Part shown: one piece after another, positions 2,062 through 54,221 of the stretch | Layout of the letters: each line of letters starts with the position of its first letter | Position numbering within the stretch: the first letter of the stretch is position 1 | Source of the DNA: Schlesneria sp. | GTDB lineage: Bacteria > Planctomycetota > Planctomycetia > Planctomycetales > Planctomycetaceae | Assembly (NCBI GenBank): GCA_028291515.1 | Contig: JAQGHU010000107.1 | Location: forward strand, 62,001 to 126,000 | DNA length: 64,000 nt | Direction of reading: 5' to 3' | Notes under the pieces: generated by a model | The model's database searches: none | Seen by the model: the letters and a program-made list of their open reading frames with translations, nothing else | Told to the model about the DNA's origin: nothing | Program-made: the position numbers and the translations under genes

Positions 2062-2144
2062 TATCCACCGAGCGAATGTCAGAATTGATCGTTAGAGCGC
2101 ATCCTACCTCTTGGTAGTGACCAGCATCTGTGTTGGTTGGCGAG

Positions 2145-2381
2145 TTATGTTGCTCGTCTCGACTTTTCGAGGGAGTGAAGGATTTGCAACAGGGCCATGA
2201 CCTTGTTGCTAGTCTGAGACTGGTATGAATCACAAACCGCCTGAAGCCCTGAATCTGGATCGGTAATTCGGACCGCACTATCTCCAAGACGGGTTTCCGT
2301 GACCACGGAATGAAGCGACGGTAGAGTCTCTAGTGACTGGAGCATGTCGCAGATAACTTGCAAAGCGTCGTCTGGCATCAT
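2145..2381 (-). CDS. Small hypothetical protein (78 aa)
   Basis: I do not recognise this protein. Support for a real gene: GAGGG sits 4-7 nt before the paired ATGs at 2381 and 2378, and an intrinsic terminator lies about 140 nt beyond its stop. The product is acidic to neutral and probably helical. Its two halves are weakly similar (ALQVICDMLQSLETL near residue 6 and GLQAVCDSY near 45), hinting at an internal duplication. There is no signal peptide or membrane segment. It could be part of the cysKE leader region or a spurious frame. Confidence 0.4.
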   Translation of the reverse strand: MMPDDALQVICDMLQSLETLPSLHSVVTETRLGDSAVRITDPDSGLQAVCDSYQSQTSNKVMALLQILHSLEKSRRAT

Positions 2382-2530
2382 TTAACCCTCGCCTGTAAAC
2401 GAAACAAGCCTCACCATATCGCCGGGGCCTGCTCGTTTCGATACCGCCTCACGCGGCTGGTCTTTCCGCAGAATGCCAGTCATGAAGTGATGGTTTCCAT
2501 CGACACAAATGCTGGTCAGTACCCACCTAT

Positions 2531-2606
2531 CTGTGGCGTCCCGCGAGCAGAAAGCCGCTTAGTCTAACCCGTGCTTCAACGCGACATGTAGGTGCCACAC
2601 GCACTA
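2531..2606 (-). repeat. 76-nt stop-codon-associated repeat, copy 1
   Basis: First of three copies (others at 36789-36864 and 54107-54182), all exactly 76 nt. Read on the minus strand it starts with TAG, the in-frame stop of the MotE-like gene. A short hairpin follows (GTGC, 5-nt loop, GCAC), then a conserved core including GTCGCGTTGAA, GGGTTAGACTAAG and CTGCTCGCGGGACGCCACAG. This copy is the most diverged of the three, with substitutions only. Confidence 0.9.
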
Positions 2607-3335
2607 GCGGCGAATGACATCATTGCGACCGGCCTGGACCGTTGTGGCCAATCTGTCAGCCAGGTTGGCGTCGATGCCATCCAGCGATGTCAGCACTCCG
2701 GCGGCATCTCGTTCTTTCATCGCTTTCAAGACTGAGATCGCTGTTTCGATCTTGCCGTCATCGACCAGCTTCCTGATGAATAACGCCTGACTACGGATGA
2801 ACGCGCTTTCGCCGGATGGGCGATTGGCATTCGCAATTGGTTTGTTTTTGGTCGATCGAGGAGTTCGCTGAGCCACTTCGAGCATTCGCAGTTCCGCATC
2901 GGCCATATCTTCGCGAGTCCGCTTGCGCAGATCATCGACAGCAGCGAGCTCGGTGCGGATGTCGTCGTAGATCATCTTCAGAGCTTCCTGGCGAACCGCC
3001 AGTTTCGATTCTTGCTCCTTCACGTCAGTCAGCAACGATGCGGCTTCGGCATCAACTACTTTGGCTTTGGCTGCAGAGACTCTCTTCGTGACGGCCTTCG
3101 GTGCTGCCACGACGACTTCTGCTTCCTCGTCAGGAACCGGCAGCAATTCTGGTTCGACGGCCGCAACGACTTTGCGAGGTCGTTTTCGCGGAGCAGGTGC
3201 TTCGGCGATGGCAGCTTGTTTTTCCGCTGCGACTTTCGCCTGCTGGTTCAATTGAGGCTGTACGAAGTCCACCCACGTCGATGCGAGGGCAAAGACGAAT
3301 AAGGCGGTCATCAGTACAGTCACCAGAATCTTCAT
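2604..3335 (-). CDS. MotE-like flagellar protein (MgtE_N-like C-terminal domain)
   Basis: About 243 residues from the ATG at 3335; a GTG at 3365 would add 10. There is an N-terminal membrane segment (ILVTVLMTALFVFALAS), an Ala/Pro/Lys-rich linker, a coiled coil near residues 105-160, and a C-terminal helical domain (FIRKLVDDGKIETAISVLKA...ILASLADRLA-type pattern) resembling the MotE/MgtE N-terminal fold. Such proteins stabilise stators or act as export-associated factors in bacteria with flagella. It lies directly downstream of flgB-flgC-fliE with a 57-nt gap, which supports a flagellar role. The stop codon is the first triplet of the 76-nt repeat. The family assignment is inferred from layout and pattern. 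Confidence 0.6.
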   Translation of the reverse strand: MKILVTVLMTALFVFALASTWVDFVQPQLNQQAKVAAEKQAAIAEAPAPRKRPRKVVAAVEPELLPVPDEEAEVVVAAPKAVTKRVSAAKAKVVDAEAASLLTDVKEQESKLAVRQEALKMIYDDIRTELAAVDDLRKRTREDMADAELRMLEVAQRTPRSTKNKPIANANRPSGESAFIRSQALFIRKLVDDGKIETAISVLKAMKERDAAGVLTSLDGIDANLADRLATTVQAGRNDVIRR

Positions 3336-3391
3336 TGGCCCATCCCAACCGCGTGTGGCGAACACCGCCCGCGATCAATCGCGCCGATTCA

Positions 3392-36674: not shown

Positions 36675-36764
36675 AGGCCCAAGGGGCCGGAACATTTTCC
36701 AGCCGGGGCCCTTCGGCCCCGGAACAGGATCTCCAAAAATATCTCTTGAGGCCTGAAGGGCCGG
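36675..36764 (+). repeat. Left palindromic module of the transposase cassette
   Basis: Contains, in order, AGGCCCAAGGGGCCGG, CCGGGGCCCTTCGGCCCCGG (a near-perfect hairpin with a short TTCG-type loop) and GAGGCCTGAAGGGCCGG. The same three blocks occur in the same order in the reverse complement of 37338-37428. Confidence 0.8.
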
Positions 36765-36788
36765 TCCTTTAGAACGCATCCCGCATAA

Positions 36789-36864
36789 CTGTGGCGTCCC
36801 GCGAGCAGAAATCCACTTAGTCTAACCCATGTTTCAACGCGACACGTAAGTGCTATCAGCACTA
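36789..36864 (-). repeat. 76-nt stop-codon-associated repeat, copy 2
   Basis: Same length as copies 1 and 3. On the minus strand it opens with TAG, the stop of the transposase gene, then AGTGC, a 5-nt loop and GCACT. It differs from copy 3 almost only in the loop and at two positions near the middle. Confidence 0.9.
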
Positions 36865-37317
36865 ATCCCACGCATATCGCTCGTCAAGTTCGAGTTCATG
36901 CCGGCGGCAGAGTTCACGGAACTCATCTTGAAATGATTGTTTCGCATGATGTGCAGGCTGGCGACGGACATAGTCAACAACCTGATCGAGGTTTGATTGA
37001 CTAACCGAAAAAGCTCCGTAACCCGACTGCCACGAGAATGTCGGACTCCCCTGAGTTGCTGATTTGGCCCATTTGGAAGTTTCCACTTTGACATATTCCA
37101 GGAGCGAAGCAACTGTCACCGTGCGAGATAGTCCGCATACCAGATGCACATGATCAATCCAGCCACCAGTATGCACGAGGACACAACCTGCTCTTTCGAT
37201 CTGGTGGCAGAGGAGACTCAGCATTTCGTCGCGAAAATCGTCGCGCTGAAGATACGCACGCCGATCTTTAGTGCTGAACGTCACATGCAGCCACACGCGC
37301 GCCAAGGATTGAGGCAT
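36862..37317 (-). CDS. tnpA: IS200/IS605-like (Y1) transposase
   Basis: 151 residues, small HUH single-strand transposase. It starts with the family strand VWLHVTFSTKDRR; the HUH pair is H56-V-H58 in WIDHVHLV; the nucleophile is probably Tyr116 in VVDYVRRQ with Gln120 nearby. The C-terminal part (FSWQSGYGAFSVS, then KQSFQDEFRELCRRHELEL) is the version found in stand-alone REP-associated-like transposases of planctomycetes and acidobacteria. No tnpB is present. ATG at 37317. The protein looks intact. Its stop is the first triplet of the 76-nt repeat. Confidence 0.9.
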   Translation of the reverse strand: MPQSLARVWLHVTFSTKDRRAYLQRDDFRDEMLSLLCHQIERAGCVLVHTGGWIDHVHLVCGLSRTVTVASLLEYVKVETSKWAKSATQGSPTFSWQSGYGAFSVSQSNLDQVVDYVRRQPAHHAKQSFQDEFRELCRRHELELDERYAWD

Positions 37318-51985: not shown

Positions 51986-52426
51986 GCTTTGGCCTTCAAT
52001 CGGAAGTCATTGAAGCGGTGGGATCTCTCACGGCAGGCCACCAATTCTAGGCCAGAAGTGCCGTTCGCATCAATATTTCCCAGCTCTCTTTTTGAACAGG
52101 TTTGGCGGTCGGTTGGTGTCTGGAGTAATGATGAATGTCGCTTCAAATGGATCTACCGCGAAACCAAAGGGGCGATTAGGAGGGTTGGGAGCACATCGAC
52201 TGAGCGGCTCAGTAGGAGCTTCGCCCTCCCAAAAACTGATCAATCCCACCTAGTTGTGGCCTAGGTTAACTTGGACATTAACCCTTAATTGCATTCAGGA
52301 TCCGTTCAGGTTTGCCGATTCAATTTGACCTGCGCAGACTGCCCCTTGCTGTTGCGGGGCGTTCAGCCGACAATGATTGTTCTCGACGTTTTGTCTCCAA
52401 ATACGCCGGAAAAGACATTTCGACAT
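51986..52426. other. Intergenic region before gspE with a hairpin repeat
   Basis: No convincing gene. A complex dyad spans 52180-52235: GGGTTGGGAG is closed by CCTCCCAA and encloses CTGAGCGGCTCAG; the right part (GTAGGAGCTTCGCCCTCCC) resembles a frequent planctomycete intergenic repeat. At 52264-52283 GGTTAA/TTAACC flank 8 nt, a candidate operator. Several open starts upstream of 52427 exist (TTG 52289, ATG 52373). Confidence 0.5.
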
Positions 52427-54109
52427 ATGGATATCGCCAAGACTCTCATTCGCCACGGGCTTGTTTCCAAAGAGCAGGTCGATATCGCTATTTCGACTTC
52501 GGCGGGACGGCGACTGGATCGGGTGCTCGTCGATAATGGCGTGCTCGACGAAGACGCAGCTCTGAAAGCGTTTGCCGATGAACTGGGGATGCCATTCGTC
52601 GACGTGAAGCACGAATTGATCGACCGCGAACTCTTGATGCAGTTCCCGACGACGGCTGTCTTTCGTCATTCGCTGCTACCGATCAGCCGACAGAACGGCA
52701 GCGTGGTGGTCGCCACTTGCGATCCATTCAACCTGGAAGCGTTGGAAGAACTGGAGTCTGTCAGCGGCTTTCATCTGGTCCCGGTGCTCGCGCGGCGGTT
52801 GGATGTGGTCGAGCTGATCAAAGAGCATCTTGGGGTCGGCGGCGACACCTTGAACGAACTGGTGGCTCAACGATCGGCCGACGGCGTTGAACTGCTGAGT
52901 GACATGTCCGCCGATGACGGTGATTTGGCTCAACAGGCCGAAAACGCCTCGGTGATCAAGCTGGTGAACGAGTTGTTGCTGGAAGCATTGGAGCAGCAGT
53001 CGAGCGACGTTCACATCGAGCCTCAAGAGAACGGCTTGATCATTCGTTATCGCGTTGACGGGTTGTTGCGAGTGCAGCCGGTCCCTGAATCGATCATGCA
53101 CTTCTATGCGGCGATCGTCACTCGACTGAAAATCATGTCGAAATTGAATATTGCCGAAAAGCGCATTCCGCAGGACGGCCGCATCAAGTTGAAGATCTCG
53201 GGTCGCGAGATCGATGTCCGTGTTTCGATCATCCCCATGATCTATGGCGAAGGGGTGGTGCTGCGACTGCTCGACAAGGGACGCATGGTCTTCAATCTGA
53301 AGAACGTCGGGATGCCCGATGCCATGGCGAAGACATTTCATGAGTTGATCGCGATGCCGCACGGGATTGTGCTAGTCACCGGTCCGACTGGTAGCGGTAA
53401 AACATCGACGCTGTACAGTGCGCTGAACGAGATCAAAGACCCATCAATCAAGATTATCACAGTCGAAGATCCCGTCGAATATCAAAATGCAGGGATCAGT
53501 CAGATCCAGGTGCATAGCAAGGTGGGACTGACCTTCGCGGCGGGTCTGCGAAGCATTCTGCGTCACGATCCGGACGTCATCCTGATCGGGGAAATCCGCG
53601 ATGGTGAAACTGCCGAGGCGGCCATCCAGGCCTCACTGACAGGCCACCTGGTATTCAGCACCTTGCACACGAACGACGCTCCGAGCGCATTCGCCCGTCT
53701 GATCGATATGGGTGTTGAACCCTATCTGGTCGCCAGTACCGTCGAAGGAGTGCTGGCTCAACGATTGGTGCGAGTGTTATGCAAGCACTGCAAAATCGCC
53801 TACACCCCCGCGGTGGAAGAGATCCCTGACGACTTTCCGCGGCCGGTGCCAGAACATTTCTACAAGCCGGCCGGTTGTCGCGAATGTCGCGGGACCGGCT
53901 ATGCCGGGCGTCGCGCGATCTTCGAATTGCTGCGAACCGATCCGGAAATCGGCAAGCTGTGTGTGGCCCGCGCCAGTTCGGCGGCGATCCGCGAATACGC
54001 ATTGCTCAATGGCATGTTAGGATTGCGATTGAATGGCTACCAGCGCGTGATCGACGGAACGACAACACTCGAAGAGGTTCTGCGAATCACCAAGGCTGAC
54101 GTCAGCTAG
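52427..54109 (+). CDS. Type II secretion/type IV pilus assembly ATPase (GspE/PilB)
   Basis: 560 residues from the ATG at 52427; upstream starts at 52373 and 52289 are possible. N-terminal GspE_N domain ([19 protein letters not shown], then [12 protein letters not shown]), the N2 domain [21 protein letters not shown], Walker [16 protein letters not shown], Asp box [10 protein letters not shown], Walker [20 protein letters not shown], His box [13 protein letters not shown], and the zinc tetracysteine motif ([18 protein letters not shown]). It drives pseudopilus extension. The C-terminus [13 protein letters not shown] is normal, and its TAG stop is the first triplet of the 76-nt repeat. No gspF or gspD is adjacent. 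Confidence 0.95.
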
Positions 54110-54182
54110 TGCGTGGAGCACTTACGTGTCGCGTTGAAACATGGGTTAGACTAAGCGGTTTTCTGCTCGCGGGACGCCACAG
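54107..54182 (+). repeat. 76-nt stop-codon-associated repeat, copy 3
   Basis: Begins with the TAG stop of the gspE-like gene, then AGTGC, loop GTGGA, GCACT, and the conserved core ending GGGACGCCACAG. Same length and orientation relative to the upstream gene as copies 1 and 2. Confidence 0.9.
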
Positions 54183-54221
54183 TTAGGTTAAGAGTCGAAT
54201 CGTCTTCAGTAAGGATGTCTG

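Follow-up and report, generated by a model that had tools for sequence, protein, structure and literature searches.

Three genes in a 64,000-nucleotide stretch of a Schlesneria genome (the whole stretch is called the window here) end on the first codon of one and the same repeat, which raises the question of what kind of element begins with its neighbour's stop codon. The preliminary description had placed the copies at 2531-2606 (minus strand), 36789-36864 (minus) and 54107-54182 (plus), each starting with TAG and preceded by C, T and C, respectively, and we recovered them exactly so. At all three, the TAG is an in-frame stop, and the open frame before it spans 256, 170 and 606 codons from the preceding stop, respectively. 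A 17-nt core matches exactly at the three copies and has no other match in the window even with three mismatches allowed, while only one of 100 shuffled sequences held three or more places at this tolerance. We conclude that the repeat is very likely a 91-bp non-autonomous transposon (MITE) of the IS630/Tc1-mariner type.

The repeat unit and its distribution

The genome that contains the window (G000) comprises 8.59 Mb in 119 contigs, and we compared it mainly with a sister species (G012) that is 88-91% identical over the compared stretch. A conserved 20-nt core, at up to two mismatches, gave 72 pattern matches in the whole genome, 70 of which had at least one recognisable end; the other two (L095 and L097), with neither end recognisable, were dropped. 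Three further copies lie outside this pattern and were left out of the counts, so that the genome holds at least 73 copies, of which 70 were analysed. In the sister species, 60 regions fetched for 69 pattern matches yielded 61 copies, and 42 of these had no match to any of the 72 rows of the window genome. Matches were confined to one genus, occurring in eight of the 59 genomes searched (the window's own genome included), among which were 15 genomes of the genus. Additionally, nine of the 15 repeat matches listed for one genome (G007) span only about the first 45 nt, which suggests a subfamily whose right half differs or changes fast.

The element is laid out as Y-TA, 91 bp with imperfect terminal inverted repeats, and TA-R. 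It is short and multi-copy and carries no transposase gene. Counting the TA at each end, the unit measures 95 nt in 48 of the 66 two-ended copies of the window genome (88-98 nt in the rest) and in 42 of 54 copies in the sister species. The 76-nt length first proposed therefore has to be abandoned; it arose because the right arm of copy 1 is split by an insert and that of copy 3 is partly deleted. The terminal inverted repeats, GTGCGGGTCGCACTTA and GAGCGCATCCCACCTA, agree at 11 of 16 positions. Read inward, the left end begins with GTGCGGGTCGCAC and the right end with GAGCGCATCCCAC, G being the first base in both; the right end begins GAGCGC on the opposite strand and thus also gives TAG after TA.

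Table 1. Positions in the window of the repeat copies (putative MITE) and associated features
Feature	Coordinates	Strand	Remarks
Copy 1 of the 95-nt element	2093..2606	-	Left-end TAG (2604-2606) is the stop of a 253-aa ORF (2604-3365); right arm interrupted
Nested insert in the right arm of copy 1	2110..2521	-	Own inverted ends TACTGACCAGCATTTGTG / TAGTGACCAGCATCTGTG; flanks AGGTGGG/AGGTAGG
Copy 2, full-length 95 nt	36770..36864	-	Both TAs kept; Y1 transposase ORF stops at the left TAG
IS200-like Y1 transposase gene, whose stop hosts copy 2	36862..37317	-	Pfam PF01797
Copy 3	54107..54188	+	GspE-type ATPase stops at the left TAG; about 12 nt missing from the right arm, right boundary approximate
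GspE-type ATPase (T2SSE), stop formed by copy 3	52289..54109	+	C-terminus conserved in the genus

The right end of copy 1 lies at 2093-2109, beyond an insert of about 412 bp, and the sister species carries an uninterrupted copy at the corresponding locus (L226). It also holds an uninterrupted unit at the place of copy 3, where the last TA reads TC. When the best match is taken from each genome of the genus (15 in all), the GspE-type protein ends within about three residues of one place, its stop being TAA, TAG or TGA. The label MotE-like, which had been given to the gene in front of copy 1, found no Pfam match at an E-value of 0.001.

The nested insert in copy 1, absent from the sister species, belongs to a second end family, TACTGACCAGCNTTTGTG, with 14 pattern matches in the genome that form inverted pairs around differing small cargo of 0.4-1.6 kb. 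Other members lie at C59:284-1911 and C85:40177-41430 of the window genome. Their cargo ORFs appear related by eye, and the two C59 ORFs compared with Pfam had no match.

Insertion into TA and the re-formation of stop codons

The flanks of the copies point to the target. In the window genome, the base before the left TA is C in 38 copies, T in 20, A in three and G in two, and the base after the right TA is A in 34, G in 22, C in two and T in one. The rebuilt target is YTAR in 46 of the 53 copies with both TAs (CTAA 19, CTAG 10, TTAA 9, TTAG 8). Since A follows the right TA more often than G does, the G of the supposed YTAG target belongs to the element. The overlap with stop codons and the mobility proposed in the preliminary description were thus upheld, while its target, YTAG, gives way to Y-TA-R with a G supplied by the element.

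To find the exact insertion boundary, 26 joined flank pairs were compared with the sister species; they were picked from 53 by the longest open frame at an end, and the sample is accordingly rich in stop sites. Nine sites were cleanly empty, at four both species had a copy of about 95 nt, and 13, including L053, L056, L089 and the copy at the Y1 gene, were unclear or had one flank only. At the nine empty sites (eight aligned together, plus L048), the sister species has a single TA where the window genome reads TA, 91 bp, TA, with small indels beside the junction at L055, L071 and L048. The insertions differ between the two relatives, and the orthologous loci bear out the suspected mobility, although at individual empty sites there may have been loss in the sister species rather than gain in the window genome. 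Insertion duplicates the target TA, which is the mark of IS630/Tc1-mariner MITEs, and IS630/Tc1-mariner elements are described as inserting into TA with TA duplication (PMC2170065).

These observations bear directly on the idea that the repeat is a single-strand transposon end, that is, a non-autonomous IS200/IS605-type element or REP derivative inserted 3' of YTAG by the Y1 transposase beside copy 2. Y1 transposases of the IS200/IS605 type insert 3' of a fixed tetranucleotide and leave no target duplication, so that a single TA at the empty sites against TA-element-TA contradicts this idea, as does the predominance of A after the right TA. Copy 2 does adjoin a Y1 transposase with palindromic sequence downstream, the left end of the element contains a GTGC/GCAC hairpin, and TAG stops derived from REP termini are already known (PMC3733652). 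Yet the genome has 13 Y1 transposase loci, only one of which carries the repeat, and four loci in the sister species, one of them aligned, match the tail of the Y1 gene and its downstream sequence straight across the junction without a copy. At another Y1 locus (L101), we found no repeat, just a right-end-like stretch with three mismatches. We therefore consider a Y1-driven origin extremely improbable, and the position of copy 2 beside the transposase gene looks incidental.

Palindromic sequences of the GGCCCTTCAGGCC type lie 3' of this Y1 gene (36680-36780), and the same four loci of the sister species share the tail and the downstream sequence without the MITE. Many tyrosine transposase genes with flanking repeats have been described in R. 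baltica (PMC3733652).

The "stop codon" of the repeat is composite, with TA from the target and G as the first base of the element. In the window genome, open frames of at least 100 codons run in frame into the left TAG in 24 of 62 cases, against two and six in the other frames, and into the right stop triplet in 18 of 59, against one and one. The same count in the sister species gives 23, one and four of 47 at the left end and 12, two and five of 43 at the right. Called stops coincide with 32 of the 70 copies (21 at the left end, 13 at the right, two at both), and in these the TAG is in frame with the upstream gene as the preliminary description held; the other 38 copies lie away from called gene stops. 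Nor is the orientation to the upstream gene constant, since both ends form stops: left-end stops outnumber right-end stops by 21 to 13 in the window genome (p = 0.23) and by 21 to eight in the sister species (p = 0.02), two sets of copies that overlap.

The stops existed before the insertion at the checked sites. At the eight empty sites aligned together, which comprise nine called gene ends, five of the ends are TAA and four are TAG in the sister species, all nine are TAG in the window genome, and the last residues of the proteins are the same or similar. At L042, two convergent genes share a single TTAA as their end in the sister species, and each has its own TAG after the insertion. Two of the less clear sites look different: the counterpart of L053 has TGA at the place, and the aligned locus for the copy at the Y1 gene reads through by eye, without a clear pre-existing stop.

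In the mechanism we propose, a transposase acting in trans would insert the element at Y-TA-R and duplicate the TA, giving Y-TA-G...C-TA-R. Because both inverted repeats start with G, TA plus element would read TAG on either strand. Where the target TA opens a TAA or TAG stop codon, insertion would rebuild that codon as TAG, leave the end of the protein unchanged and be tolerated, whereas insertions inside genes would presumably be removed by selection. A TA target with a G at both ends is thus a simple rule by which a transposon could be harmless at gene ends, rebuilding TAG either way round, and it holds even at the overlapping convergent stops of L042.

The excess of copies at stop codons

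We next asked how far tolerance goes in explaining where the copies lie. Gene calls came from a custom hexamer-based caller that had been trained on the window genome and was applied in the same way to copies and background. Nearby non-coding YTAR sites fall at stops in 14.6% of cases (53/364), from which 12.5 copies would be expected against the 32 observed (p ~5e-10, with copies treated as independent, as in all p-values here, and with a random background that takes in the window and its three copies). Other thresholds of the gene caller gave 32 against 13.3 expected and 29 against 11.4 expected. The excess recurs in the sister species, where 18 of the 42 copies without a match in the window genome are at stops against 10.6% expected (25/236, p = 8e-8).

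This excess belongs to the stop itself: copies at a stop versus 0-60 nt downstream number 32 to 11, against 53 to 74 for the background (p = 0.0003). Copies do not differ from the background in lying near or far from a stop (p = 0.31), and no avoidance of divergent intergenic regions was seen (p = 0.70). No copy lies within a called gene, either among the 70 of the window genome or among the 61 of the sister species; L071 overlaps a called ORF in part. Copies shared with the sister species are not significantly richer in stops than unmatched ones (9/18 versus 23/52, p = 0.79), a comparison in which a few of the 52 unmatched copies may be shared, 60 regions having been fetched for 69 matches. 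GC-rich flanks were considered as a reason for site choice and gained no support (flank GC of 0.539 versus 0.531 at intergenic YTAR sites, p = 0.23).

With the excess specific to the stop codon rather than to the 60 nt that follow it, and with shared copies not significantly richer in stops, tolerance alone may not account for the excess over nearby non-coding sites. One explanation is lock-in, in which insertions occur anywhere in non-coding DNA and those that form a stop persist, being undeletable without loss of that stop. Copies 1 and 3 of the window fit this pattern, with damaged right arms and the stop-forming end kept, but the similar stop fractions of shared and unmatched copies speak against it, and we regard lock-in as improbable. 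Another is a true preference of the transposition system for stop codons, mediated by DNA features or by coupling to the end of transcription or translation. The stop-specific excess, its equal strength in unmatched and shared insertions and its recurrence in a second species all point this way, and we hold such targeting to be possible, if on balance unlikely. In either case, the excess of stops over nearby sites in two species makes it a measurable question how TA-targeting elements reach safe sites.

Enrichment at stops would also be expected of a functional 3'-UTR or terminator element held at gene ends by selection on RNA, and the consensus RNA indeed folds well (-36.2 kcal/mol, z -2.5; equalled by two of 200 shuffles), as an inverted-repeat element would. 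However, among 90 distinct 95-nt copies, changes at paired positions are mostly one-sided, and five of the 33 pairs form in at most 68% of copies (counts made without a shuffle control). At base pair 18-78, A-T and C-G forms are both present, yet the pair does not form in over half of the copies. Furthermore, both orientations are used, nine of the 38 copies away from called stops lie between divergent genes, the sister species lacks the element at nine sites, and the window contains no Rfam match at gathering thresholds. The translation-coupled 3'-UTR element suggested in the preliminary description is therefore highly improbable.

The putative transposase and comparison with known systems

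If the repeat is a MITE of this type, its mover would be an IS630 transposase, a candidate that we put forward from sequence likeness. The window genome has five DDE_3 (IS630-type) matches. At the start of contig C59 lies an IS630 remnant, consisting of a transposase C-terminus (65% identity over 20 aa to another IS630 transposase of the same genome) with TAGAGCGCATCCCTGTTAG directly after it. The end of this remnant, GAGCGCATCCC, comprises 11 bases after TA that are identical to the right end of the element. It has three mismatches to the 19-nt end pattern, a level at which a reversed control pattern also has three matches in the genome, so the case for the remnant rests on its position right after the transposase C-terminus. 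Two other IS630 elements, L120 in the window genome and L265 in G011, have ends reading TA followed by GAGC, whereas most others with recognisable ends differ. An intact autonomous element with both MITE ends was not found in the 32 IS630-type loci scanned, which are fewer than the 38 matches listed for 12 of the 15 genomes; L121 and L279 each have one end-like stretch with three mismatches and no pair.

Two IS630 genes of the window genome, L123 (C92) and L128 (C59), are broken by IS3-like copies at contig breaks. We considered whether these halves form one element, but the sequences on either side of the IS3 copy showed no match by eye, and the two are probably different loci.

The IS630-type MITE reading accounts for a pattern that resembles a new class of repeat bound to stop codons. 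Several known families of short mobile repeats invite comparison, among them enterobacterial RU-1, which we take to be ERIC. Like RU-1, Neisseria Correia elements and Coxiella QMITE, the Schlesneria element is short and mobile; in RU elements the ends are TA and TA is duplicated, and these elements, like a QMITE2, can touch the 3' ends of genes (PMC2759123, PMC2229807, PMC5896051). The examples described there extend or fuse to reading frames, whereas the end of the Schlesneria element re-forms the stop and leaves the C-terminus unchanged. The preliminary description knew of no repeat defined by a stop codon, but a family of repeats that supply TAG stops, the GTAG-tagged REPs, has been published: their termini often give TAG stops to flanking genes, and gene 3' ends are preferred (PMC3733652). 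Those REPs are palindromes of 20-40 bp linked to Y1 transposases, whereas the Schlesneria element, about 95 nt long, has inverted ends, duplicates TA and is preceded by G at its TA in only two of 63 copies; we therefore rejected an identity with them.

Among the matches listed in a literature search, no title concerned the repeat or Schlesneria MITEs, and the main text of a 2024 review of prokaryotic MITEs does not contain the words "stop codon", "planctomycet" or "IS630" (PMC10969869). Full insertion sequences of the IS630/ISY100 kind insert into TA with TA duplication as our element does, but carry the transposase that it lacks (PMC2170065); a preference of IS630 for the TA in CTAG is stated in a title cited by the same paper. 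Although the repeat unit of pneumococcus (RUP) differs in sequence and host, and re-formation of stop codons does not feature in the descriptions compared, we regard this IS630-Spn1-type MITE as the closest analogue of the Schlesneria element, with its 107 bp, about 110 copies, TA target and IS630-like ends (PMC2229807, PMC3049150).
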